NCBI RefSeq assembly: GCF_000466385.1
Contig: NZ_KE952747.1
Coordinates: forward strand, 1,031-65,030
Origin: Aneurinibacillus aneurinilyticus ATCC 12856
GTDB taxonomy: Bacteria; Bacillota; Bacilli; Aneurinibacillales; Aneurinibacillaceae
DNA length: 64,000 nt
Direction: 5' to 3'
Shown: in pieces, positions 4,680-64,000 of the stretch
Layout: the number at the start of each line of letters is the position of its first letter
Position numbering within the stretch: position 1 is the stretch's first letter
Program-made: the position numbers and the translations under genes
Notes under the pieces: model-generated
Told to the model about the DNA's origin: nothing
What the model saw: the letters and a program-made list of their open reading frames with translations, nothing else
The model's database searches: none

Positions 4680-4746
4680 AAAAAAAGCCCCTCCTTCACA
4701 TTTATTTTGCCCGTTTAGGAACAAAATATGTGAACAAGGGACTTTC

Positions 4747-5175
4747 TTATTCTTTGCGTACGAATGTAACCGGGAATGTTTCTTTGCGGTTGGGGCTCCA
4801 GTCTACCGTTACTGTAAACGTACTGTCCTCCCCTCTTCGTTCGCACCCGGTACAACTTGTACGGTAGATAATGCTGCTTTTATTATTCATGTCGTCTTCG
4901 CTTCCACTTACCTCTTCACCAAGCCCTGCAAGACGATAACGGACATTATATACAGATTCGATATCAGCTGACTTATAGGAAAGACGTAATATTTGCTGCT
5001 CCTTTTTACTGTCCGCTGTATGGATAACCGTCAGTAAAGCTTTCCAGTTATCCGATTGACCGACATACAGAAGCGTCTCCCGCTTATCTCCGCATCCTGC
5101 AATCAGAACAATGCATAGGAGAACTGCCACAAGCCACATCCACCTATCATATCGCTTCCGTTGCAAATATGTCAC
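4747..5175 (-). CDS. Lipoprotein of unknown function
   Basis: The protein has 142 residues. It has a type II signal peptide: basic start, hydrophobic core near residues 13-25, and lipobox LIAGC with Cys28 as the lipid-attached residue. The mature part has beta-strand character and a CTGC pair near residue 109 that could form a disulfide or bind metal. It should be anchored on the outer face of the membrane. The start is GTG and overlaps the stop of a small upstream frame by GTGA, which suggests translational coupling. Confidence 0.7.
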   Translation of the reverse strand: MTYLQRKRYDRWMWLVAVLLCIVLIAGCGDKRETLLYVGQSDNWKALLTVIHTADSKKEQQILRLSYKSADIESVYNVRYRLAGLGEEVSGSEDDMNNKSSIIYRTSCTGCERRGEDSTFTVTVDWSPNRKETFPVTFVRKE

Positions 5176-47856: not shown

Positions 47857-47955
47857 GGATGGAAAGAGCAAAGACAGCCAGCGAAAATCGACAAATGCAT
47901 CTTTCGCTCGTATGCCATCACCTCCCCATCAACCGTAGGTACATGCGGTGAACCT

Positions 47956-48061
47956 AGAGCAGGCGGCGATCTGGCTTGAGGATGCTTCCTCTTACAGTGG
48001 CGGGACCGCGCCGGATTTTCACCGGTCTTCCCCTTTCACACTCCGCGGAGTGACCTGCTCT
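47956..48061 (-). promoter_or_regulatory. Cobalamin riboswitch upstream of the mutase operon
   Basis: The minus strand shows the class conserved core: GGGGAAGACCGGTGAAAATC, then CCGGCGCGGTCCCGCCACTG, then the B12-box-like AAGCCAGATCGCC. P1 is formed by AGAGCAGG with CCTGCTCT. Binding of adenosylcobalamin should favour the downstream terminator. Repression of a B12-using enzyme by B12 is less expected than of a B12-free one. Confidence 0.92.
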
Positions 48062-48069
48062 GTCAATTA

Positions 48070-48075
48070 ATTATA
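48070..48075 (-). promoter_or_regulatory. -10 box of the riboswitch transcript
   Basis: The minus strand reads TATAAT nine bases before the P1 stem of the riboswitch. No good -35 is seen 17 bases upstream. Confidence 0.45.
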
Positions 48076-51006: not shown

Positions 51007-51124
51007 CCTGTTCCACTCATTTCGAAACGATAGAAATCCGCTCAACACAAAGAAACCGGATATCATTTTCCGAATCACGCAGTGTAACACCTCCCTATCT
51101 CCCGTAGGTCAAATCAGTGCTGTT

Positions 51125-51300
51125 GAAACAGGCAGGTCTCCTGGCTTATGCGTCATCGCTTCTCTTCGTCTTCCCATCTCCCTGCCGAGACAGTGACATA
51201 TAAAAGAGTTGCTCTGCATTTACAGTGGCGGGACCGCGCCGGGCTTTCACCGGACTTCCCTTTTAAGCCGATAAACAATCCGCTTACCGACACCTGTTTC
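51125..51300 (-). promoter_or_regulatory. Cobalamin riboswitch upstream of metE
   Basis: The minus strand has GGGAAGTCCGGTGAAAGCC, then CCGGCGCGGTCCCGCCACTG, a peripheral arm, and the B12 box AAGCCAGGAGACCTGCC. P1 is GAAACAGG with CCTGTTTC. All main conserved blocks are present. It governs the 300-base leader of metE. Confidence 0.95.
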
Positions 51301-51332
51301 CATCATATTTAATTATAATAAAACTTATTGAA

Positions 51333-51457: not shown

Positions 51458-53116
51458 TTACTTTATTGACCAGTAAGCATATATATCTTTTATTGTCACA
51501 GCATCCGGTACATGCTGACGAACAATCCGGTTCACAGCTGTCGTATAGAAAAGCTGGCCAGTAAAAAATACACGTGAAGGTGCTATCGCGGCTACACCAC
51601 CATCAAATAGCATGGCACAGCGCGTAGCCGATTGAGCGGCAAACTCCGTATCGTGTGTCACCAAAATAACCGTCATTCCTTCCTCCCGTGCGGTTCGTAT
51701 AATTTGAATGACGTCTTGCTTTGCTTTTGGATCAATCCCCTTCGTAGGCTCGTCAAGCAGCAATAGCTTTGGGCGGGCAAGTAAAGCACAAGCAAGCGCA
51801 ATTTTTTGCTGTTGTCCACCGCTACAATCATACGGGTGCATGCCCTTTACTTCCCTCAGCCCAAATCGCACCATCATTTCTTCGACAAGCGAACCATCGA
51901 CAGCAGCATGGCACAACTCCTGCTCTACTGTGTCATAAATAAAATATGAGAACAGATTTTGCGGGACGTATCCAATCAGTCCCTGCCTTTCTTTCATGGA
52001 AAGAGATGTCCGCTGCTGTCCCTGCCATTTTATAGTTCCTCGCTGCGGTATAACCAACCCGGCTATGCATTGCAAAAATGTAGACTTTCCAGCACCGTTT
52101 CCGCCCATGATCACAAGGCACTCCCCTTGGTATACTGTAATAGATAAGCGATGCAAAACATCCGGCGCGTCCTTTCCATAACGAAAACTAATGTTTTCGC
52201 ACCATATGAGCGGCTCGCCTGCTTCTTCCGATCTGATCGGCACTTTGTTTTTTTCTGGAAGAGCAGGTGCAGGAAGAGCAGCAAACCATTTTTTCCCTTC
52301 TTGTACGGTAAGCGGGATACTCTCTGTACTTATATCATCCACTTGATATGGACATGCCAAATACAATTGAGTTGCAGACGGCAAATAGGGAAGAAATGAT
52401 TTATCCTCTTTTGCTTTCATCTTGCAAATACTATCACGTACTGGACCATCATATATAACGCTACCACAATCCATTATCATGAGGCGTGTCGCACACGGAA
52501 GCAACTCCTCCAATCGATGCTCGCTCACAATGATTGTGATTCCTAATTCCTGATGAATGTGTTGCAAAAGCTGGACGAAAGCTCGTACTGTCACCGGATC
52601 AAGCTGGGCAAACGGTTCATCAAGCAATAATACCCGCGGATGCAGCAACATAACAGACGCAAGATTAAGCCACTGCTTCTGTCCCCCCGATAATTGTCGG
52701 ACAGGCTGGTATAGCCATGTTTCCATTCCGAAAAAAGGAACAATGTCCGCCACACGCCTATGCATGTCTTCAGGGTGAATCCCTATATTTTCCATAGCAA
52801 ACACAAGCTCATGCCAAACCGTATCCATCACAATTTGACTTTCTGGATTCTGCAGTACTATTCCTACCTCCTGTGCCATCCTGGCATCGGGCTGTTCATC
52901 CAATGCAACACCATCATACGTAATAGTGCCTTGTCGCCTCCCTGCGGGTAGCAGTTGCTTTTTCATATGACGTAACAATGTGCTTTTTCCAGAACCGGAC
53001 GGCCCGCCCAAAACAATAAACTCCCCTTCCTCTACAACCGCAGATACCCCAAGCAGTGCTGGCCGTTCAGCATCCGGGTATACAAACGAAACATCGTTTA
53101 TTTCCAGCAATGCCAT
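51458..53116 (-). CDS. ECF transporter ATPase, two fused domains (EcfA)
   Basis: The protein has 552 residues with two complete ABC domains in one chain, like YkoD. The first has Walker A GGPSGSGKSTLLRH (about 36), QLSGGQKQWLNLASVML and LLLDEPFAQLDPV. The second has GGNGAGKSTFLQC (about 340), CSGGQQQKIALACALLA and LLLDEPTKGIDPKAK. The fused ATPases power vitamin or metal uptake through the T and S partners. It overlaps ecfT by 19 bases. I choose the ATG at 53116, eight bases after AAGGAG. Confidence 0.92.
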   Translation of the reverse strand: MALLEINDVSFVYPDAERPALLGVSAVVEEGEFIVLGGPSGSGKSTLLRHMKKQLLPAGRRQGTITYDGVALDEQPDARMAQEVGIVLQNPESQIVMDTVWHELVFAMENIGIHPEDMHRRVADIVPFFGMETWLYQPVRQLSGGQKQWLNLASVMLLHPRVLLLDEPFAQLDPVTVRAFVQLLQHIHQELGITIIVSEHRLEELLPCATRLMIMDCGSVIYDGPVRDSICKMKAKEDKSFLPYLPSATQLYLACPYQVDDISTESIPLTVQEGKKWFAALPAPALPEKNKVPIRSEEAGEPLIWCENISFRYGKDAPDVLHRLSITVYQGECLVIMGGNGAGKSTFLQCIAGLVIPQRGTIKWQGQQRTSLSMKERQGLIGYVPQNLFSYFIYDTVEQELCHAAVDGSLVEEMMVRFGLREVKGMHPYDCSGGQQQKIALACALLARPKLLLLDEPTKGIDPKAKQDVIQIIRTAREEGMTVILVTHDTEFAAQSATRCAMLFDGGVAAIAPSRVFFTGQLFYTTAVNRIVRQHVPDAVTIKDIYAYWSIK

Positions 53117-53976
53117 TGCCATCTCTCCTTCAATTCAATTACAAGCGGGATACACAAAAAAAGAACAAGCAACACTATGGAGCCCCATTCCGCTATTGTC
53201 CATCCCACTCGAATCATCCTTTCATATGCTGTTTGTCCATGGCCGCCTATAAGCCAGCACCATGCTCCGCCCCCTCCTGTCACTATCATATAGACAAGCA
53301 CTAGCCAATCCTGTCTGGTCATGCTCCAGGATATATATGTGCTTCGCTTGGTAACTCCATATCCTCTCGCTTTCATCGAATCCGCCGTTTCCAGCGCTTC
53401 CTGCAACGACCATGAGAACAGCGCATGCAGCAATTGCGCTCCGGCTTTTGCCCGTTTGACCATCGAACCGTCATACACATCCAGTCCACGTAACTTCTGG
53501 ATAAGAACAAGCTGATGTAACCTCTCTTTTAACAACGGAACGAAGCGAAGCGAGATCATCGTTACAAGTGCGACCTGTGGTAACAGTGGAGCTGCCATAC
53601 AAAGAAAACGCTCGGCTGTCATGGTTTGATTATAGGAAAGAAACCATACGAAAAGGACAATCAATGCCAAACTCATAGTTATCCCATATGTGATGGCCTC
53701 TAGCATAATCGGCTTGCCCCCAATAGCAAACAGAGGCGTACTTCCCACATTGAAAAATACGGAATGGACAACAATGACAATGCCACTGGGCAACAGGCAA
53801 AAACGTAATGTTCCCCTGATGCTTCCGCCTTGTCCCTGTAACGCCGCCAGCCACACACCGCTTATAAATGCGATGAAAAGAATGACAGGATGGAATGCTA
53901 GCATAAGCAGAGCAAACAATAACAAGTAATATAAAAAACAGACCGTTGGGTGGACGGTGGAAAAACCGCGGCTCAT
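53098..53976 (-). CDS. ECF transporter T component (EcfT)
   Basis: The protein has 292 residues with about six hydrophobic segments. The coupling-helix region is LQEALETADSMKARGYGV near residues 195-212, containing the Ala-Arg-Gly signature that docks to the ATPases. LRFVPLLKERLHQLVLIQKLRG precedes it; ATP-domain contact helices are as expected. It starts with an ATGA overlap on the S gene, so the S-T-A order is tightly linked. Confidence 0.9.
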   Translation of the reverse strand: MSRGFSTVHPTVCFLYYLLLFALLMLAFHPVILFIAFISGVWLAALQGQGGSIRGTLRFCLLPSGIVIVVHSVFFNVGSTPLFAIGGKPIMLEAITYGITMSLALIVLFVWFLSYNQTMTAERFLCMAAPLLPQVALVTMISLRFVPLLKERLHQLVLIQKLRGLDVYDGSMVKRAKAGAQLLHALFSWSLQEALETADSMKARGYGVTKRSTYISWSMTRQDWLVLVYMIVTGGGGAWCWLIGGHGQTAYERMIRVGWTIAEWGSIVLLVLFLCIPLVIELKERWQWHCWK

Positions 53977-54689
53977 CCACCAGCCACTCCCCTTTCTTCC
54001 AAGCTATTATCAAAAAACAAACCGTATTTACGCTTGTATCGTTCCGCAATCGCCAACCAACTTGTACTGAAAAAAGCAAGAAAAAACAAGTTGGACAAAG
54101 CATGCAGCATGTCCATCGAAAAACTTGTTACACATGCCATCACATACCCTTTCCAGCTCACTTCCAAAAAACCAAGCACAAACCACGTATTCAATATCCA
54201 CCCATATAGCAAGCCCCAGCAAAAACCAAATATCATTTTTCCCGGCTTGCTTTTCATCCAGCGAGATTGACGCCACCATCCTGCCGTTAATCCAACCATT
54301 CCCCAGGCGAACATTTGCCATAGTGTATATGGTCCCTGTCCCAAAAACATATTCGAAACAAGTGCGGCAAGCGCGCCTGTCATAAACCCTGCTTCCGCTC
54401 CAAATGCTAAACCAGACATGATAATAATAAATGTCGTAGCCTGTACGCTGGGCAATGATGCGAAGGCTACCCGCCCCGCCACTGCCAATGCCGCATGAAC
54501 CGCTATAAGCACAAGTGCATGACTGTTCAACACTTGTCTTTCAAACCGGATAAAGAATGGTATCATGGCAAGCAGAAGAAATATAATACTTAACACAAGG
54601 GCATTCGTTTCCGGTCGAACTACCAATACGGATAAAAGTCCCACTCCTCCGAGTATCCCGCCTATTCGTGCAAGTATAAAACGATCCAT
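53973..54689 (-). CDS. ECF transporter S component, candidate cobalamin receptor (CbrT-like)
   Basis: The protein has 238 residues and about six hydrophobic segments. The stretch ASLPSVQATTFIIIMSGLAF, then GAEAGFMTGALAALVSNMFL and GQGPYTLWQMFAWGMVG, resembles the S components assigned to cobalamin (CbrT) from memory. Membership in the S family is well supported; the substrate is an inference helped by the transcobalamin-like neighbours. I start at ATG 54689, after AGAAGGAG, and reject the longer frame to 54749. Confidence 0.75.
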   Translation of the reverse strand: MDRFILARIGGILGGVGLLSVLVVRPETNALVLSIIFLLLAMIPFFIRFERQVLNSHALVLIAVHAALAVAGRVAFASLPSVQATTFIIIMSGLAFGAEAGFMTGALAALVSNMFLGQGPYTLWQMFAWGMVGLTAGWWRQSRWMKSKPGKMIFGFCWGLLYGWILNTWFVLGFLEVSWKGYVMACVTSFSMDMLHALSNLFFLAFFSTSWLAIAERYKRKYGLFFDNSLEERGVAGG

Positions 54690-54714
54690 ATATCCCTCTC
54701 CTTCTGGACAAAAC

Positions 54715-54744
54715 ATGCGGCAGGTGCCGATGGACCCGCCGCAT
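54715..54744 (-). other. Hairpin between the SLH-DUF4430 gene and the S component gene
   Basis: ATGCGGC pairs with GCCGCAT around a 16-base loop, followed on the minus strand by GTTTTGTCC. It could be a weak terminator that sets lower expression of the transporter than of the surface proteins. Confidence 0.4.
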
Positions 54745-54755
54745 ATCACAAGCTC

Positions 54756-57545
54756 TTATTTACCGATTAGCAATCGCTCAAGGCCATATAGCATAACAGC
54801 CGCTTCTGCCCGCTTAACTTGCCGCTTCGGTGCAAATGTCTGATCTCCCATGCCCGTTATGATTCCTTGCTGTACCGCAAAAGCTATATCCTGTCTGGCC
54901 CATTCAGAAATAGCCTGCTTATCTTTAAACGATAATTCTATTGGCTGTTGAGGTCCTATTCCTTTCTTTTGCTTTAACAGCCGCGAAACGACTGCCGCTG
55001 CTTCCTCACGGCTTATCACTTGCTCCGGTCCGAAGCGATCCACACTAATCCCTGTCATAATCCCTGCATGATATACAACCGAAATATCTTTGGCATACCA
55101 TTTGTCAGCTGTTACATCGCGGAATGGGATCAGCTTTTTCTCTGTTGCTGGCTGTTCGTATGCCCTGGCTAATAGTGCAGCAAATTCTGCTCGTGTAATG
55201 GATTTTCCTGGGGAGAATGTCATTTCACTCGTTCCGCTGATAATCCCTTTTTGCTTCAAAGCATAAATCGCCTCTTTTGCCCATTCAAAACCGGCTAGAT
55301 CCGTATATGCGCCCGTCTGCCCTGTCAATACTAGCACTGGCCCTGGCGCAGATAGCGTTGTTACAAGCATTTTCTCATCTTTGTTGTACGTAGTAGGTAC
55401 GCTTACACGCTCGTTTTTTATGCTTGTATATACAGCCGGCAGCGCTGCACCCTCCGGCAATTCATACGGAATGGCAAACATAATCGGCTGTTGCGGCACA
55501 ACCGTTGCCCCTGTAACAGTAGCATCAATCAAGAACATAGAATGGACGCTTTCTGATGCGGATACGAAACCGGCAGGATAATCTGCTGCATCTACCTTGT
55601 CCAGTTGAAGCGTCAGCACCTTTCCTTGCTCGATTACACCGGCAAATGCGGCAGGCTGAAGCGTAAACTGTGCCGCCTGCGTACGAATGTTGATGCTATT
55701 TACAAGCCTGTCTAGTATCTCCTTGTCTATTTGAATGCGTACCTTATCCGACTTTCCTGGCGGAATGAGAAGCGTCAACGGCTTGTCCAATAAATAGGTA
55801 GCGTTCAGCTTGCTTGTCGCTATGCCCTGCTTTATCGCCTTCTGCTTCTGCTGTACACGCTCTATTTCTTTGATGATAGTATCATCAATGATGACAAGCA
55901 ATTTTGTCCCATCATCCTGTATATGCTCTTTTTTAACAGCAATCTCCATGCTTTTACTCAGCAGGCGCTCAATGACCGGTCGTATCTTTTTCTCATCTAT
56001 TTTTCCGTGCAGCTTGTCCACCGCCTTGATAAGGCGTACGAATGCTTCAGCGTTCTCCCCTGCCTCATCCGCTTTTGATATTGTTGTCACATACCCGTTA
56101 AGCAGGATGATAGCAACTGCCTCTATCTCTTTTTTAGCTGCTTCGCTTAGCGGTTTGTCAACAAGCTCTCCGGCCAATTCAAGCAAGCGCAGGTTACACT
56201 CTGCTAATGCGGTGAAAGAGGCCGGCATGCTAGCCTTTGCCGCCGCTTTGTCAATCCATCCCGCAATTGTCTGCATGTTTTTTATGGCCTCTGTTATTTG
56301 CGTATCGTTCTCCCGCTTGGCCTCTACCGCTTGATCAACAGCCTGTCTAATGAGTGCAACCATATCCTCCTCTTTATTTGCCGCAGCCAGTAATTCTTCG
56401 AATTGTTTTTTCAGCTCTTCGATAGATATAGGGGCCGCCGCTTCGCCATTTACCTCAATTTTAATCGGATTCGGACGTATAAGATCCCGGATATCCTGCT
56501 TGAAACGTTCAGCGCTAATGGTGTAGGAGCCCGGACGGTCAAACGTTAGCTTTGCTTTTCCCTGCTCATCTGTACTTACTTTACGTCCGCTATTCTTTGC
56601 CTCCTGTCCGTTCACATAAATAACCGCATTTTTGACCGGACCCTTATCCGGACTTGTAAGGGTCACTTCTATCTCTTCTTTTGGTTTAACGGATGTTTTG
56701 TTGGCTGCGATTTTGGAATACATATTGTCATATCCGTATGCCGCAAAATACCACACCATGTCATCCCCGTCTTTCAATACATAGCCCTGCCCTCCGATGG
56801 AAGGTAATTCATCATTCACACGGTACATCCAGCCTGAGGTGCTACGGTGGTCAAATTCCCGTTCGCCGCCAATCATTGCTACATACAGACCCCAACCATA
56901 ATCCTGTATATCGGCGCCGCTTTGATGATCTTTCGGGTTGATTCCCGCCTGTTCAAGCCCACGGATAATACCATGCATTGCGGTGACATTAGGCAGCTTA
57001 TCCGGTCCCCAGCCATCGGATGGTGTAGCGGAGCTTCCTGAGGCCCGACCAAGATATGGCGTCAAATCGAAATTATCCACAGTAATCGCGGTGCGTGGCA
57101 AGATGGTTTGGTTATATCCTTCAATACGCAAATAAATGGTTTTGCTTTTATCCGTACCCGGCTTGGGTGTTTCCGGGTTACCTGAGTTGCCCGTTCCGCC
57201 TCCTTCTCCCTGCTTCTTAGTGGAAATGGCGAAAGTTTTCGTTTCCCCCTCAACATTCACCTTGCCCGTGTATGCTTTTTCCGGGTCCAACTGAAAGGAA
57301 AACTCATATTCTCCCTGATCGTTTGTCATCCCCTGATTAATGTAGCGGGTCTCATTTCCTTCTTTAACGAGCAATGCTACAGGAGCTTTCTTATGATCAG
57401 ATGTACCTGTTACCGATATACTGCCATCCGGCTTGCCCTGCGGCGTTACATTCACCGCAGCAAAAACGGAAGACATTGATACGAACAAGCATAATACAAT
57501 TGCCATCATCTGTACGATGCGCCGTACACTACTTCTTACCCTCAT
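54756..57545 (-). CDS. SLH-anchored surface protein with transcobalamin-like domain
   Basis: The protein has 929 residues. A signal peptide (residues 1-29) is followed by an Ig-like domain (about 30-110, SISVTGTSDHKKAPVALLVK), a Gly/Pro linker, and a DUF4430 domain (about 130-275). The latter has GWGLYVAMIGGEREFDHRST, GWMYRVNDELPSIGGQGYVL and DGDDMVWYFAAYG, the typical Trp-Met-Tyr-Arg-Val-Asn core of the transcobalamin C-terminal family. Further Ig-like (about 280-370), helical (about 380-570) and beta regions follow. The C-terminus holds three SLH repeats (about 755-925, first AGFEWAKEAIYALKQKGIIS), which bind the wall polymer. So it displays a small-molecule binding module on the S-layer. 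Confidence 0.88.
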   Translation of the reverse strand: MRVRSSVRRIVQMMAIVLCLFVSMSSVFAAVNVTPQGKPDGSISVTGTSDHKKAPVALLVKEGNETRYINQGMTNDQGEYEFSFQLDPEKAYTGKVNVEGETKTFAISTKKQGEGGGTGNSGNPETPKPGTDKSKTIYLRIEGYNQTILPRTAITVDNFDLTPYLGRASGSSATPSDGWGPDKLPNVTAMHGIIRGLEQAGINPKDHQSGADIQDYGWGLYVAMIGGEREFDHRSTSGWMYRVNDELPSIGGQGYVLKDGDDMVWYFAAYGYDNMYSKIAANKTSVKPKEEIEVTLTSPDKGPVKNAVIYVNGQEAKNSGRKVSTDEQGKAKLTFDRPGSYTISAERFKQDIRDLIRPNPIKIEVNGEAAAPISIEELKKQFEELLAAANKEEDMVALIRQAVDQAVEAKRENDTQITEAIKNMQTIAGWIDKAAAKASMPASFTALAECNLRLLELAGELVDKPLSEAAKKEIEAVAIILLNGYVTTISKADEAGENAEAFVRLIKAVDKLHGKIDEKKIRPVIERLLSKSMEIAVKKEHIQDDGTKLLVIIDDTIIKEIERVQQKQKAIKQGIATSKLNATYLLDKPLTLLIPPGKSDKVRIQIDKEILDRLVNSINIRTQAAQFTLQPAAFAGVIEQGKVLTLQLDKVDAADYPAGFVSASESVHSMFLIDATVTGATVVPQQPIMFAIPYELPEGAALPAVYTSIKNERVSVPTTYNKDEKMLVTTLSAPGPVLVLTGQTGAYTDLAGFEWAKEAIYALKQKGIISGTSEMTFSPGKSITRAEFAALLARAYEQPATEKKLIPFRDVTADKWYAKDISVVYHAGIMTGISVDRFGPEQVISREEAAAVVSRLLKQKKGIGPQQPIELSFKDKQAISEWARQDIAFAVQQGIITGMGDQTFAPKRQVKRAEAAVMLYGLERLLIGK

Positions 57546-57566
57546 TTGTTTTTCACCTATCCTTCT

Positions 57567-60500
57567 CTACGGTGCCACCGACAATGTCTGCGGTTGCTCA
57601 AGCAAAATGTTCATATTCTCCGGATTGTCCCACACAAATGCTTTTACCTGTAAATGATCTGCTGACGGAACGAAAATGCTTGCAGCACTCTCTTTCTTTT
57701 CGTTTTTCGCCAACGTTTCCGTAACAAGCTTATAGCTCTCCATTTTTCCTGTTTTCTGATTGTATACGCCGATTAGCAACGTGACATCCTGTTCTTTGGA
57801 TTGCTTGTTGTGTACGTTTATTTTTACAGGTTGTTCCTTCCCTTTCTCCAGCGGTTGTGTTGTCAGAAGAATTACTTCAATATCGTTTCGGTTAGGAACA
57901 GGATCCTTCTCAACTTGAAGCGTATAGCCCGGTAAATTGACAGACCACAGGTCGCTGTATTTGGATTTGCCGTTATATAAATCACCAAGCGCAAGCAATG
58001 CCTGCTCGGTCGTCATGCCATTCGGGGATTTTTTGCCAGGCTCTGTCGAATGGCTAAAGCTACCATTATCAAGCTGCGCTTCCAAAAGCGATGTTAAAAG
58101 ACTGCCGCGCTCTTTCTTCCATTCCGGTGCCAGCGGATCAAGACCGCAGGCGATCAAGCCCTGAATCACCCAGGCACTTGATTCGGGATTCGGATAATTC
58201 TCAATGCCCCATCCGCTAAAACCGCCATGTGCCTTTTGTTGCGATTTCAGCCAGGCAACTGCTTTGTCAATCGCCGCCTGTACGCCCGGCATGTCACGGT
58301 GCGGTCCAAGTGCAGTGAGCGCCATACCTGTGCTGTCAATATCACCGCTTGTCCACTCACCTACATCGCCTGTCCAGCTAAAACTGCCATTCGCTCCCTG
58401 CATCGCCAGCAAACGCTGTACAGCTTTTTGCGCATTATATCCTTCCGCCGCTGTCGCTTTCGCTGCATCGAGGGCGATAATCCCGAATATTTGCGTATTT
58501 CCCTGGCTGGCATCTTGTTTGCCCGCTCCCCATCGAGGCGAGAAATTGCCTGATGGATACAAGGTGTCCGTCAACTTTGCTACAAGATTCGTTCCATTAA
58601 AATCACGCGGATTGTACCCTGCTCCAAGCACCCCAAGAATAGTACGCTCCAAATCCGTCGTCGGGTAACTGTTGCCTACATTGTAGCCCCATTTGTCATC
58701 CGCAATCGCAGATGCCCGCCAGTAGGCATAGCCTTTGCCATCTACAAGCCATTTGCGCGCCTGCATATGCTGTCCGGCTGTTCCAAGCGCAAGCGCCTCC
58801 CAATCATTGAACTTGCCTTTCCGGGTAAGCAATTCTTTTTCATATGCGGTAATCGTACGGGTCAGCGCAGACTGGATTCGCTGCCTGTCCGAAGCGATGG
58901 CAGGAACAGTAACGACAACCGGTGCTCCCGTACCTGCTATGTAGCTGCTGCCTTCCCGACTTCGTTTCACTGCTGCTGTAACCCCGTACTCTCCAGCCGC
59001 CAAATCAGCTACAGCGACCCTGTATTGGGTAGTATCGCCGAGCGCAAACTCTTTCGCTATAGAAGAAGAGCCGCTTTTGGGTGTAAATGTCAGCTTAAGC
59101 GTAAGCCCTTTCTCTACTACTGTTCCTTCAACATTCACCATACCTGTAATGCTGTCATACACTGCTTTCGTAATGCTTGGAGGGGCAGGGTTGCCTGATA
59201 CAATATCAATTTTTGCCGCAGGGGAGGCAACACCATCATAGGATGCATACAAATACATCACTTGTCCCGTAGCTGGCGCACGAAAGGAAACCGCACTGTC
59301 CGTTCCGGTGATAGGAATTTTTTCTACTCCGGTAGATGGTGTCAGATCAGAAATATACTTGTAGGTTCCTTCCGCAGTGCTAACGGATCTGGCATTCTCT
59401 TTATTAAGCGGTGCATCAAGCGTATAGAACCATGTCACGCCTGTTGTTACGTCTTCTCCATGACGCCCTTTAATAATTGCACTCGCCTTGATCGTTTCAC
59501 CTGATTCGTATGCATTTTTGTCTGTTACTAGCCCTTTGTTTTTAAATAACGGTACATTAGGTACATAGCGTATCTCAACAGATGCCTCTGCTCCACCATA
59601 TAGGGCATATACACTGCCTAGCTTATTCCCGTCCAAAATGTTAGGCAGCATGATGCTCATCTCAGTACTGTTTCCATCAACACGATAAACGGTGCCATCA
59701 ACACTGTAATACCATGTAATGCCACTCGCTACGGGCTGGCCGTTTTCCATTGCTTTTGCCTTCACACGCAGCTCTGTATCGCCATACGCATAATAAAAAG
59801 TACCTTGCTTCGGCTTGTTTACGTCTGTAATGTCAATGCTAACGGTACGGCCTCCGCCATCAATGCAATACAGACCGTTCGCAGTCAAAATATACAGACA
59901 TCCGCCGTTGCCAAGCATAAGCTCCGTGTTCATACCGAAGCGATCCTTTGCCGGAACATTGTATGACCACTTCCGGGTTCCATCCGGCATAAGTGCAATA
60001 ACTTCACCTAAATAATTGCTATCAGTCCCTACATATACAACACCATTCCAGTCAATGACTAGATTTCTTGCCACATTTGATGTTGCACTCGTTTTGTACG
60101 ACCACTTGCGGCTACCATCGGCTGCATTGTACGCCAGCACGTTATATTCACCTGTTGCTATATAAAGCGTATTATCGTTCGCCACTGCTGCACTTCTGAC
60201 CTGATACGCTTCGCTAACAGGCAAAGGCTGGGACCATACCGCTTCCGGCCTGCTGCCATTATCTTTAAGCCGATACAGCCCGAATCCGTCCTTCTTTCCG
60301 GTAATCACATACAGCGCACCATTCGCTCCAACGATCGGGCCTGCTCCTTCCTTGGGCGCAGCATTATCAAAAATACTGGATTCCTGCCATTTTACTTTAC
60401 CGTCGGCGGTAAGTGCGATTAAGCGATAATCTTGAACACCATAACTGTAGTCACTGCCTGAAGGAGTCCATGTTTCCTTCCACGTTAATAAATAAATCGA

Positions 60501-62678
60501 GCCATCCGCTCCAATCACAGGACTGGCCGGGGCTGAATATCCTGTAGGCAATGCATAATGCCAGCGCTCTTGCAAATTAAAATCAAGCGCAACCACCTCA
60601 TAACGGCCCGCATGAAGCACAGCCCCGTCATCGGACAACTTATTTGGCTGCAGGCAATTCAGTACATAAATGCCGTGCTCATCCGCTTTCAGCACGTAGG
60701 AATAATAGTTGTTCGGATTAAGCTTTATGTTATTTGCTGTTCGATAATTTTGAAAAAGAAAGTACTCGTTCGTACTTTCAATGACTTCACCGCTTGCTGT
60801 GTCTATCCGCCGTATTTTTTGCTTACCCGAATCAGCAGGCACCACACCATAAAAAAATGAATCCTTACTGACAGGGGAAAGCAACGATGTATATTTATTG
60901 TTCTCTTCTACCGTTCCATCGTTGGGATTTGTCAAAAGCCCGGTATATGCGCCCTGCTCAGTAGTAACCGCATGCCAAATACGCCCATCCGGCAACAAAA
61001 CTGGAGCCACCTGTTTATCGTAACCACCTTTAAGTGCTGTATAATTTCTTAAAAAATAAGGCTCGCTCCATTTCAAACCGGGCGCGCTGGCAGGGCCGGC
61101 CGTATTCCCCTGATAATTGCTGCCCGGATTTTGTCCGGCTTGCGACCACGCAGACGATCCGGCTGACTCCGTATTTACCTGTACGGTTATCAGCGCCGTC
61201 ACGTTTGGAGGCGTGGCAGTGTCTTCGGCGATTACATATGCGTTGTACGCTATATTTTCTACCAAACCGTTAAGCGGAAGCTGCACTTCCGCTCCGGCAG
61301 CAAAACCTCTACTCCCGGCAATGGCTGCCGCTTGGCCTGTGCTGTCCTGACCGGCCTTCACCTGCACCGCTGTCGGGGCTGGTTCCGTTTGTGGCAGCAC
61401 AACATAATATGCCTTGCCTGCCCAGTCTGTTTTGACAAACAACTGTACCGTATCGGCTGTCGTGTGCCCTATCTTTGGATAGCCGACAGCAAAGGCAAAC
61501 GCAGCTCCGTCAGTCGAGGAGGTTGTAAAGCCAACCTGTTGCACCGCTGTTGTGTTGGGGGGTGTAGCGATATCTTCAGCAACTACATATACGTTATACG
61601 CTGTATTCTTCTTCAATCCGCTAAGCGGAAGCTGCGCTTCCGCTCCGGCAGTAAAACCTCCACTCCCAGCAATGGCTGCCGCTTGGCCTGTACTGTCCTG
61701 ACCGGCCTTCACCTGCACCGCCGTCGGAGCAGTCTCACCTTGTGGAAGTACAACGTAATACGCCTTGCCTATTTTATCCGTTTTAACCGCTAGTGAAGCT
61801 GTGCTTGCTGTGATATTGTCTACCTTTGGATAACCATTTGCCAGCGTAGGCGGTGTGGTATCCGGTGCAGCATCATCGGCAATTTCAAACGTATCGTACT
61901 TGGTATTTCGAAACTGTACCCGGTACGTTTCTCGCCTGTTTTTGAGGGCATCCGGAATCGGAACTGTAAACGTCGCTTCGCAATACTGTCCGTCTGGCAT
62001 TAATACTAATGTTCCGGAACCTTGCGTCTCACCTGCTGGGATGTTTTTGTTGTTATCATCCTTTAGCGCCCCGCCTGTTGCATTTCTCAAATTTGCTGTA
62101 ATTGTGCGTCCGGCGCCCTGAGGAGCGGTTTTAACCGTAACCGTCACACCGCTCGTACCGACAGGAAACTTTTTCTGCGCTACGTTCACATCGGCTACAA
62201 GATCAACCGGGACACGCACGCTGGAAATTCCGCCGGGATCAGTAGGCGTTTTTACTGTCTGCTCCCCTCCTGCGTACTCCGCATATAAATGAATAAAGGC
62301 TACTTCTGCATCAAGATTATAGTCCAAATCAGTGGGGATAAATGTAAAAGATGATCCCTCATCAGTTCCAGCCGTCACCTCCGATCCGGTGATCGCTCCC
62401 GATGTTGTGCTTTTCTTGTATGTATATTTAATCCCGCTGTTTACTCCTAATGGCTTGCCCTCAGCATCGGTTACGTCTGCCGCAACCTCAATCGGATTGC
62501 CATAGCTATACGATTGCTGCGTATTTACTATCGTTGTCGGTTTCGTTATTTTAATGGCGGCAGGAGCTGCTTCCTCTGCTTTCACAGACACGGTATCATA
62601 CATGCTTCCCAACAGCAGGGCCATAATGACAAAGGTGGACATAAGCCGCTGCAACACTCGTCTATATTTGCTCCTCAT
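57567..62678 (-). CDS. Giant secreted protein with intrinsic-factor-like barrel, beta-propeller and Ig-like repeats
   Basis: The protein has 1703 residues. A signal peptide (1-35) is followed by beta domains. Two near-identical Fn3-like repeats lie at about 275-505 (each with PTAVQVKAGQDSTGQAAAIA). A PQQ-like beta-propeller spans about 505-935 (blades such as YIATGEYNVLAYNAADGSRK and VYVGTDSNYLGEVIALMPDG). Ig-like modules follow (about 935-1250). An alpha/alpha barrel of the terpene-cyclase/intrinsic-factor type spans about 1265-1580, with repeats DSTGMALTALGPHRDMPGVQ and ESSAWVIQGLIACGLDP. A C-terminal beta domain ends the chain. The barrel is the N-terminal fold of human intrinsic factor and transcobalamin. 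No SLH repeat is present, so it may attach through partners. Confidence 0.85.
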   Translation of the reverse strand: MRSKYRRVLQRLMSTFVIMALLLGSMYDTVSVKAEEAAPAAIKITKPTTIVNTQQSYSYGNPIEVAADVTDAEGKPLGVNSGIKYTYKKSTTSGAITGSEVTAGTDEGSSFTFIPTDLDYNLDAEVAFIHLYAEYAGGEQTVKTPTDPGGISSVRVPVDLVADVNVAQKKFPVGTSGVTVTVKTAPQGAGRTITANLRNATGGALKDDNNKNIPAGETQGSGTLVLMPDGQYCEATFTVPIPDALKNRRETYRVQFRNTKYDTFEIADDAAPDTTPPTLANGYPKVDNITASTASLAVKTDKIGKAYYVVLPQGETAPTAVQVKAGQDSTGQAAAIAGSGGFTAGAEAQLPLSGLKKNTAYNVYVVAEDIATPPNTTAVQQVGFTTSSTDGAAFAFAVGYPKIGHTTADTVQLFVKTDWAGKAYYVVLPQTEPAPTAVQVKAGQDSTGQAAAIAGSRGFAAGAEVQLPLNGLVENIAYNAYVIAEDTATPPNVTALITVQVNTESAGSSAWSQAGQNPGSNYQGNTAGPASAPGLKWSEPYFLRNYTALKGGYDKQVAPVLLPDGRIWHAVTTEQGAYTGLLTNPNDGTVEENNKYTSLLSPVSKDSFFYGVVPADSGKQKIRRIDTASGEVIESTNEYFLFQNYRTANNIKLNPNNYYSYVLKADEHGIYVLNCLQPNKLSDDGAVLHAGRYEVVALDFNLQERWHYALPTGYSAPASPVIGADGSIYLLTWKETWTPSGSDYSYGVQDYRLIALTADGKVKWQESSIFDNAAPKEGAGPIVGANGALYVITGKKDGFGLYRLKDNGSRPEAVWSQPLPVSEAYQVRSAAVANDNTLYIATGEYNVLAYNAADGSRKWSYKTSATSNVARNLVIDWNGVVYVGTDSNYLGEVIALMPDGTRKWSYNVPAKDRFGMNTELMLGNGGCLYILTANGLYCIDGGGRTVSIDITDVNKPKQGTFYYAYGDTELRVKAKAMENGQPVASGITWYYSVDGTVYRVDGNSTEMSIMLPNILDGNKLGSVYALYGGAEASVEIRYVPNVPLFKNKGLVTDKNAYESGETIKASAIIKGRHGEDVTTGVTWFYTLDAPLNKENARSVSTAEGTYKYISDLTPSTGVEKIPITGTDSAVSFRAPATGQVMYLYASYDGVASPAAKIDIVSGNPAPPSITKAVYDSITGMVNVEGTVVEKGLTLKLTFTPKSGSSSIAKEFALGDTTQYRVAVADLAAGEYGVTAAVKRSREGSSYIAGTGAPVVVTVPAIASDRQRIQSALTRTITAYEKELLTRKGKFNDWEALALGTAGQHMQARKWLVDGKGYAYWRASAIADDKWGYNVGNSYPTTDLERTILGVLGAGYNPRDFNGTNLVAKLTDTLYPSGNFSPRWGAGKQDASQGNTQIFGIIALDAAKATAAEGYNAQKAVQRLLAMQGANGSFSWTGDVGEWTSGDIDSTGMALTALGPHRDMPGVQAAIDKAVAWLKSQQKAHGGFSGWGIENYPNPESSAWVIQGLIACGLDPLAPEWKKERGSLLTSLLEAQLDNGSFSHSTEPGKKSPNGMTTEQALLALGDLYNGKSKYSDLWSVNLPGYTLQVEKDPVPNRNDIEVILLTTQPLEKGKEQPVKINVHNKQSKEQDVTLLIGVYNQKTGKMESYKLVTETLAKNEKKESAASIFVPSADHLQVKAFVWDNPENMNILLEQPQTLSVAP
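61274..61732 (-). repeat. Tandem 351-base repeat within the giant gene
   Basis: Two copies of an Fn3-like module are offset by 351 bases (117 codons). A core of over 100 bases, for example around GCGGAAGCTGC at 61274 and 61625, is nearly identical, which points to recent duplication or gene conversion. Confidence 0.75.
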
Positions 62679-62735
62679 ATTCTCATCTCCCTTCCATGCA
62701 ATTCTTTTGCACCCTTGTCTGTGAAAATGAAAAGA

Positions 62736-62768
62736 AAGCGGGAAGAAACATACCTGTACTCCCCGCTT
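62736..62768 (-). terminator. Possible partial terminator between the DUF4430 gene and the giant gene
   Basis: The stem AAGCGGG/CCCGCTT is followed on the minus strand by TCTTTTCATTTT. It lies 10 bases past the stop at 62778 and may lower read-through into the giant gene. Confidence 0.55.
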
Positions 62769-62777
62769 CTTTCATCA

Positions 62778-63512
62778 TTACGGTATTATCACCGTATGTA
62801 CTGATGATTTCGTATGCTCAATGGCATAATTAAGCGCGCCGGATGTGAAATATTTATCCTTTACTAAGATCTGCCATGTACCGCTGCTAAGACCGGTAAA
62901 AACAGCATCGCCGTTGCTATTGGTCGTAGCTGTACGCTCGACTCCTCCTTGCTTGGCAACAACGGTTGCTCCTTCAAGACCGGTAAATCCAGATAAATCC
63001 CAATTGATTACATCGTCGAATTTCTCCGCCTTTACATTGACGGTAAGGGTGCTGCCACTCACCGTGGTGTTGTCTATCTTCGTAAAGTACGTTTCTGCCG
63101 GAACTGCATAATACCATGTCACATCATCACCAGCATGCAGCACGGCTCCATTCGGATCATCGGCGGCATAGCTGAGCAGTTCATTGTTCACCCGGTACAT
63201 CCAGCCTGAATATTCACCCGGATATTTATTTTCCATTGCACCATTAATTGCCGATACATATAAATTGGCGCCGCTACCGCTGTGTACAATCGGAATTCCC
63301 CTATCATTGCTAACCTGTTGCAGGGCAGCAAATACAGTCGAGCCTTCCTCCACTGTTACTGTGTTATCGTATACGATCCCGCCTTTATCCGATGTGCTGA
63401 GAATTTTATAGCTGACATCAATCGCTGCCGCGAACGCTGACGAAGCGAAGAGCAATACGATGCTGAGTGCCAAAGAAAGGGCGGTCATCGTCTGTTTGAA
63501 TCGTTTTATCAT
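62778..63512 (-). CDS. Secreted transcobalamin-like (DUF4430) protein
   Basis: The protein has 244 residues. A signal peptide (cleavage near AFA-AA, residue 29) is followed by a DUF4430 domain (about 32-140): VTVEEGSTVFAALQQVSN, the SGWMYRVNNELLSYAADD core, and HAGDDVTWYYAVP. A carboxypeptidase-regulatory-like beta domain follows (about 150-244). In human transcobalamin the same fold is the C-terminal half that closes over the B12 molecule. There is no anchor, so it is free or held by a partner. AGAGGAGG lies eight bases before its ATG. Confidence 0.88.
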   Translation of the reverse strand: MIKRFKQTMTALSLALSIVLLFASSAFAAAIDVSYKILSTSDKGGIVYDNTVTVEEGSTVFAALQQVSNDRGIPIVHSGSGANLYVSAINGAMENKYPGEYSGWMYRVNNELLSYAADDPNGAVLHAGDDVTWYYAVPAETYFTKIDNTTVSGSTLTVNVKAEKFDDVINWDLSGFTGLEGATVVAKQGGVERTATTNSNGDAVFTGLSSGTWQILVKDKYFTSGALNYAIEHTKSSVHTVIIP

Positions 63513-63527
63513 TTCTTGTTCCTCCTC

Positions 63528-63629
63528 TTATCCGCTCATTTTTTTCTTGCACGCCAATTGATGATTTATCATTATCTGCTCATTTTCTGCTAATCTCCCC
63601 CTTTCCCATTGTCCAGCGCGCTGTACCAT
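63528..63629 (-). CDS. Possible 33-residue open frame before the DUF4430 gene
   Basis: ATG 63629 follows GGAGAAGGGGGTG closely, and the frame runs to TAA 63528, 15 bases before the next ATG. The protein is polar with no hydrophobic segment (MVQRAGQWERGRL at the start). It may be a coupling leader or chance. Nothing else is visible in 63513-63657. Confidence 0.3.
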   Translation of the reverse strand: MVQRAGQWERGRLAENEQIMINHQLACKKKMSG

Positions 63630-63657
63630 CACCCCCTTCTCCTTCTGTTCTGCCCTA

Positions 63658-64000
63658 TCATTCCAATACAAACCTTTGAGGTTCGTTTAATAAAATATTC
63701 ATATCCTCCAGATTGTCCCAAACAAATGCTTTCACCTCAAAATCACCCGTCATCGGAACAAAAATGGATTGGTTCAATGTTTCTTCTTCCTTTTCCGGCA
63801 CTGTTTGTGTAACAAACTTGTAATCTTCCAGCTTTTTCGTCTTGGCATTATATATCCCGATAAGCAATGTAACTTGCTGGGGCTTTGCTTGCCTGTTTGT
63901 TATCTTTACTTTTACCGGCTGTTCCTCTCCTCTTTTCAACGGTCCGTCTATTATTGGACTCACCTCAACACTTTTATCGCCGGGAATCGGGGGCATCTCG
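63658..64000 (-). CDS. C-terminal end of another large surface protein (runs off the window)
   Basis: At least 114 residues are visible, open at the window edge. They match the C-terminal beta domain of the giant protein at 57567: EQPVKVKITNRQAKPQQVTL compares with EQPVKINVHNKQSKEQDVTL, and both end with a KAFVWDN...MNILL segment. So a second large protein with the same C-terminal module lies upstream, probably also with an intrinsic-factor-like barrel. Confidence 0.8.
   Translation of the reverse strand, partial: EMPPIPGDKSVEVSPIIDGPLKRGEEQPVKVKITNRQAKPQQVTLLIGIYNAKTKKLEDYKFVTQTVPEKEEETLNQSIFVPMTGDFEVKAFVWDNLEDMNILLNEPQRFVLE

Follow-up and report, generated by a model that had tools for sequence, protein, structure and literature searches.

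A candidate operon for surface capture and import of vitamin B12 in Aneurinibacillus, with carrier-like proteins that recur across Bacillota

We analysed a 64,000-nucleotide stretch of the Aneurinibacillus aneurinilyticus ATCC 12856 genome (the window), in which a tightly packed series of minus-strand genes encodes secreted proteins with DUF4430 domains or alpha/alpha barrels together with an energy-coupling factor (ECF) transporter. The series is very probably part of a cobalamin-riboswitch-controlled operon for the capture and import of cobamides (B12 and its relatives). In the mechanism that we propose, low B12 would let the riboswitch pass transcription through a terminator, a switching step suggested by the observed order of elements. 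Secreted or cell-wall-held barrel and/or DUF4430 proteins, with homology or likeness to the two domains that make up intrinsic factor and transcobalamin, would then clamp B12 outside the cell, with separate barrel and DUF4430 chains pairing and the clamp closing between them. A membrane DUF4430 lipoprotein would receive the bound B12 and relay it to the S component of a dedicated ECF transporter of the CbrT type, which would bring it into the cell.

The operon and its control

The window covers bases 1031-65030 of a 90,193-bp contig (C100) of the 5.3-Mb genome. Past the window's last base, the gene series continues for about 16.6 kb and stops at a cobalamin riboswitch (C100:81477-81674, 131.4 bits). 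The operon thereby spans about 29 kb from riboswitch to ECF genes, with the window holding the downstream half. Genes are spaced by no more than 145 nt throughout and many overlap, and a single transcript probably extends to the ECF genes, some 27 kb downstream. Across the upstream 20 kb, the top terminator-like site on the minus strand, GCCATCCCTCCATACGGGATGGC-TTTTTT, directly follows the riboswitch aptamer, and the top promoter-like site on the same strand and stretch directly precedes the riboswitch; together, the three elements have the layout of a transcription-terminating 'off' switch. An earlier note on this DNA had suggested looking past base 64000 for a cobalamin riboswitch and had named a different one, such as a thiamine riboswitch, as a sign against its proposal; the riboswitch found there is a cobalamin riboswitch backed by an intrinsic terminator. 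Thiamine was considered as the operon's vitamin and rejected, as the thiamine pyrophosphate riboswitch farther out on this contig (L006:7340-7446) precedes its own thiT-type S gene in a separate plus-strand unit.

In order of transcription, the riboswitch is followed by genes for a 442-aa DUF4430 lipoprotein, three proteins without a Pfam match (665, 244 and 532 aa), a MoxR-type AAA ATPase, a DUF58 protein, a 1207-aa BatA/vWA protein, a 505-aa barrel protein that weakly matches SLH, a 382-aa DUF4430 protein and a multi-barrel protein. The C-terminal end of the last of these lies in the window (63658..64000, minus strand, as are all genes of the series) and the remainder beyond it (L005:2689-5610), with matches to the barrel hidden Markov model on the pieces. 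The multi-barrel gene holds two 100-N scaffold gaps (L005:3552-3651 and 4706-4805), and its assembly was probably broken by its repeats. Next come a 244-aa secreted DUF4430 protein (62778..63512; PF14478, 2.7e-13), whose signal peptide is readable in the sequence, and a 1703-aa secreted protein (57567..62678; PF13360, 2.2e-13; PF00432/PF13243) that combines N-terminal repeats, a PQQ-type beta-propeller (59679..61121; phmmer hits to propeller repeats, both designed and natural, with 4.7e-41 for the best) and a C-terminal alpha/alpha barrel (57921..58907). A 929-aa secreted surface protein with a DUF4430 domain (54756..57545; PF14478, 8.7e-15) follows and carries three SLH repeats (PF00395, 1e-34); another operon protein reaches 16.9 bits against the SLH cut-off of 20.8. 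The series ends with the ECF S (53973..54749), T (53098..53976) and fused A (51458..53122) genes. All of the genes named in the earlier note were thus recovered, and domain matches agree with its statement that the barrel and DUF4430 halves sit on separate or very large proteins in the window.

Surface proteins and importer co-occur in Bacillota

Carrier-type surface genes beside a B12-type importer form an arrangement that is spread across Bacillota. Among 199 evenly drawn Bacillota genomes, the window's own included, DUF4430 was found in 62 and a CbrT-like S component in 60 (counted at E <= 1e-10, with four weaker matches set aside). Both were present in 58 genomes, DUF4430 alone in 4, the S component alone in 2 and neither in 135 (Fisher p = 1e-42); this p value overstates independence because the genomes are related, although about 50 genera are spanned nonetheless. 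The DUF4430 and S genes lay within 20 kb of each other on one strand in 51 of the 62 genomes. Riboswitch linkage, for which all counts are lower bounds, was similarly directional: a same-strand cobalamin riboswitch was located no more than 5 kb upstream of at least 75 of 137 DUF4430 genes and, within 20 kb, at least 85 had a same-strand upstream riboswitch compared with at least 2 that had one on the opposite strand.

At 47 loci with adjacent genes for the T component and the two-ATPase (AA) protein, a barrel gene and a DUF4430 gene were both nearby on the same strand in every case. These loci were picked through DUF4430 or barrel matches and this count is hence biased, whereas the 199-genome table is not. 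The usual gene order was barrel-DUF4430 carrier, DUF4430, (barrel), T, AA and S. In four genomes (G101, G062, G135 and G165), a small DUF4430 gene adjoined a CbrT-like S gene, and no cobalamin riboswitch was detected genome-wide. That DUF4430 and CbrT are so nearly always found together provides a testable, likely function for a large domain family listed as 'unknown'.

A CbrT-type ECF transporter

The 258-aa S component had a single significant match among 177,635 PDB sequences, to CbrT (6fnp_A; phmmer, 1.5e-13), with the next at 0.14. The ECF transporter of that structure has demonstrated import activity for both cobalamin and cobinamide (PMC5997447). At 292 aa, the CbrV-like T component (PF02361, 4.4e-13) falls far under the cut-off of the cobalt CbiQ equivalog, and the A component (554 aa, CbrU-like) carries two ATPase domains in a single protein (PF00005 over two stretches, 4.9e-60; TIGR04520, 319.8 bits against a cut-off of 315), such that a T component and two ATPase domains are present beside the S component. 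By sequence, the transporter is of the CbrT-type ECF family, and a clustering of the S component with another vitamin, which the earlier note had named as a sign against its proposal; it is likely to transport cobalamin. In some loci elsewhere, AA proteins of 800-920 aa occur without a separate S gene. The one examined (L101:13463-16204) encodes an AA-S fusion of 913 aa, and the AA genes in L099, L102, L103 and L107 are comparable in length, also without a separate S gene.

DUF4430 domains resemble the B12 carriers

DUF4430 is the recognised type of the C-terminal domain of B12 carriers (PMC4350170). Four operon proteins exceeded the curated PF14478 cut-off by a wide margin (about 48-59 bits compared with 23.8), in line with the earlier note's expectation for this family. 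When a profile of 31 operon DUF4430 domains was compared with the PDB, transcobalamin-2 came first (0.0047), followed by haptocorrin (0.0079) and intrinsic factor (0.076); a Ruminococcus protein was next after the human carriers and, further transcobalamin entries aside, the rest were worse. The E-values for the human carriers are marginal, and the placement of all three at the top of this sequence search is telling. The 244-aa protein, used as a single-sequence phmmer query against the PDB, returned nothing significant.

Three haptocorrin residues, R357, W359 and Y362, help to keep the corrinoid stably bound (PMC4350170). The profile alignment puts these residues at EERSWGPYITCIQG (chain numbering offset 23), and the operon proteins have QDYGWGLYIAMIGG (382-aa protein) and QDYGWGLYVAMIGG (929-aa protein) at this site. 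The Y362 position is aromatic in 79 of 111 DUF4430 domains, and both positions are aromatic in 27 of the 111.

Barrels and their fused relatives

Modelling indicates a genuine alpha/alpha toroid fold for the barrels: the AlphaFold2 model of the window barrel had a predicted local distance difference test score (pLDDT) of 90.5 and a predicted template modelling score of 0.91. Their relatives settle the architecture as that of a barrel plus DUF4430 carrier type. In total, 39 proteins hold both domains in a single chain, with the barrel N-terminal in most, which is the order of intrinsic factor; this architecture occurs in relatives and in no complete window protein. For a fused protein of Syntrophomonas palmitatica (modelled at a pLDDT of 84.2), Foldseek ranks 1-15 were all B12 carriers (bovine, human and rat transcobalamin, intrinsic factor and haptocorrin, 1.2e-10 to 4.6e-8), and terpene cyclases came after them, from 3.8e-7. 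Six of seven fused proteins checked for riboswitches (L084, L087, L088, L092, L094, L100 and L109) begin 120-390 nt behind one, of the AdoCbl-II class in one case and cobalamin in the others; none was found upstream of the L094 protein. The L092 protein is a Syntrophomonas palmitatica fusion encoded at L092:6273-8795. For the DNA-pattern search, a set of closely related barrels was used, since an alignment of diverse ones varied too much. Several fused proteins end in SLH repeats (for example, those of Moorella in L084 and of a Peptococcaceae genome in L123), and the L088 protein has a sortase-like PKTGD tail.

Several observations weigh against the proposed mechanism. Foldseek of the window barrel was led by terpene cyclases, with transcobalamin first appearing at rank 22 (2.0e-5), and the barrel alone is therefore non-discriminating; the structural match to the intrinsic-factor type anticipated in the earlier note is significant but unspecific. 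VIA-align likewise placed terpene cyclases first for both models; for the fused one, intrinsic factor stood at rank 49. The two-domain Foldseek match has a root-mean-square deviation of ~21 A and a TM of ~0.45, such that each domain may fit while their mutual placing differs or is unreliably predicted. At the sequence level, the barrel profile led to squalene-hopene cyclases, macroglobulins and prenyltransferases, matches that are driven by QxxDGG repeats, and B12 carriers were absent from the best 60; the fused barrel-DUF4430 profile similarly had no B12 carriers among its best matches, and a single-sequence phmmer search of the PDB with the window barrel returned nothing significant. The earlier note had also proposed a search against PF01122, and no barrel reached its curated cut-off (1 of 13 barrels scored 0.0076, and a Moorella protein had 13.9 bits compared with 25). 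We therefore do not assign the barrels to that family and restrict our claim to proteins that work like its members. Finally, de novo cob genes and a BtuCDF-like ABC system also lie behind cobalamin riboswitches in this genome, and it is not evident why the operon would be needed as well.

Alternative explanations

The same gene set could be a B12 import operon in which DUF4430 proteins alone contact B12 and no clamp forms, while the barrels have a structural role or act on some other molecule, such as a glycan or a lipid. We regard this as rather unlikely. It would suit the proximity of the barrel to terpene cyclases, by sequence and by VIA Z, and the Lactobacillus-type loci of the four genomes named above, in which a small DUF4430 protein adjoins the S component (barrels were not searched for there), but it does not sit well with barrels fused N-terminal to DUF4430, in the vertebrate-carrier order, in proteins that start right behind cobalamin riboswitches. 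Reading the barrels instead as secreted terpene-cyclase-like or glycan-active S-layer enzymes, co-regulated with B12 genes by coincidence, draws on the class II terpene cyclases that come first in structural comparisons of the barrel alone. The acid motif of these cyclases is DxDD, and the barrels have DVD[MS]T in its place. Moreover, the barrels are fused to a B12-carrier-type beta domain, and they repeatedly lie close to B12 riboswitches and a transporter of the CbrT type, findings that together leave this the least credible of the explanations weighed here.

Scarcely more probable is an ECF transporter for another vitamin or for cobalt, with an indirect riboswitch association. In Pfam and NCBIfam, the S component has weak matches only, to riboflavin and folate models, and the T component resembles the cobalt CbiQ family. 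Against this, CbrT is the sole significant PDB relative of the S component, cobalt import is present elsewhere in the form of CbiM in the cob operon, and the riboswitch is of the cobalamin type both in this genome and in relatives. Capture by carrier-like surface proteins followed by CbrT-type import thus remains the reading that we favour.

A MoxR-DUF58-vWA module linked to cobalamin riboswitches

Inside the operon, beyond the window, the block at L005:8281-17963 contains the MoxR AAA ATPase, DUF58 and BatA/vWA genes and those of the three proteins without a Pfam match. A block comprising the DUF4430 lipoprotein, the three unknowns, MoxR, DUF58, vWA and a barrel is found again in several Clostridia, among them Clostridium tetanomorphum, C. 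rectalis, Desulfotruncus arcticus and a Tepidanaerobacteraceae metagenome-assembled genome, and it follows cobalamin riboswitches in six genomes besides this one. Six such loci were examined. In five of them, a same-strand cobalamin riboswitch lies within ~1.2 kb upstream of the lipoprotein gene, the product of which is 53-67% identical in those loci to that of the operon's first gene. The sixth locus, from a Peptococcaceae metagenome-assembled genome, has riboswitches followed by the canonical carrier-DUF4430-T-AA-S set and, directly after it, the block. The barrel adjoining the module is 70-80% identical across distant lineages, which suggests horizontal transfer. We found no account in the open-access literature of a link between MoxR and a cobalamin riboswitch. 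These findings point to a likely B12 role for the MoxR-vWA module. As a tentative and more doubtful proposal, the module might spend ATP on loading, unloading or remodelling B12 carriers, or form another B12 entry route, alongside cell-wall intrinsic-factor-like clamps that feed a CbrT-type ECF transporter in Bacillota.

The B12 regulon of the genome

Nine cobalamin riboswitches were found in the genome. Two of them lie in the window, as the earlier note had stated, both on the minus strand, before metE (51114..51312; RF00174, 125.4 bits) and before the methylmalonyl-CoA mutase genes (47945..48073; RF00174, 64.1 bits); both belong to the same regulon but to other operons. The note had also counted three B12-using operons in the window, and the two examined, for ethanolamine ammonia-lyase (EutB/EutA) and for methylmalonyl-CoA mutase with MeaB, are present. 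Elsewhere in the genome, cobalamin riboswitches precede an operon for cob biosynthesis that includes CbiM, with CbiD encoded on that contig too. Others precede genes for CobT, a BtuCDF-like ABC set, an ABC transporter of the NikA-like kind and a ribonucleotide reductase. The organism probably both makes and scavenges B12. The riboswitch at L114:242-438 (contig C165:6241-6437) is upstream of the NikA-like substrate-binding protein and its ABC transporter, a system that perhaps imports cobalt or nickel.

Comparison with known systems

Extracellular B12 capture by Gram-positive bacteria is poorly known, and a 2019 survey described the finding of B12 transport systems in gut genomes as an open problem (PMC6593275). 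Earlier work has described the CbrT and CbrTUV transporters (PMC5997447, PMC6593275). The S component described here is homologous to that of ECF-CbrT (CbrTUV) of Lactobacillus delbrueckii, and both systems have an ECF T component and ATPases. However, one ECF module serves eight S components in L. delbrueckii (PMC5997447), whereas the operon here has a T component and fused AA protein dedicated to its S gene, as well as barrel proteins, none of which have been described alongside CbrT. An additional lipoprotein beside a cobalamin ECF transporter has been noted before, as L. rhamnosus K8Q211 is named 'Additional lipoprotein component of putative cobalamin ECF transporter' in a database (PMC9963975), and the first gene of our operon encodes a DUF4430 lipoprotein. 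Nothing in that name speaks of a fold like that of the carriers, of a clamp or of a relay at the surface.

BtuG of Bacteroides is a surface beta-propeller protein that captures B12 for a transporter (PMC6143338), and the 1703-aa protein also contains a beta-propeller. The partner of BtuG is the TonB-dependent BtuB in the outer membrane, and in a comparison limited to sequence BtuG (3DSM) was not among the 19 phmmer matches of the propeller. Our searches of the open-access literature returned no description of two-domain surface carriers, of the conserved operon order or of a riboswitch-linked MoxR module; as far as we searched, three things are new: a two-domain carrier that recurs in bacteria, its fixed operon and the MoxR-DUF58-vWA module with its riboswitch link. 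Like the vertebrate carriers intrinsic factor, transcobalamin and haptocorrin, the fused bacterial relatives place an alpha/alpha barrel ahead of a beta domain of the DUF4430 type. The bacterial proteins, known here from sequence and models, differ in that they occur in several copies per operon, are held by SLH or sortase-type signals and fall under the PF01122 cut-off, and the modelled fold resemblance is compatible with shared descent of the domain pair or with separate origins. The architecture of the human B12 carriers thus has bacterial counterparts within B12-controlled operons.

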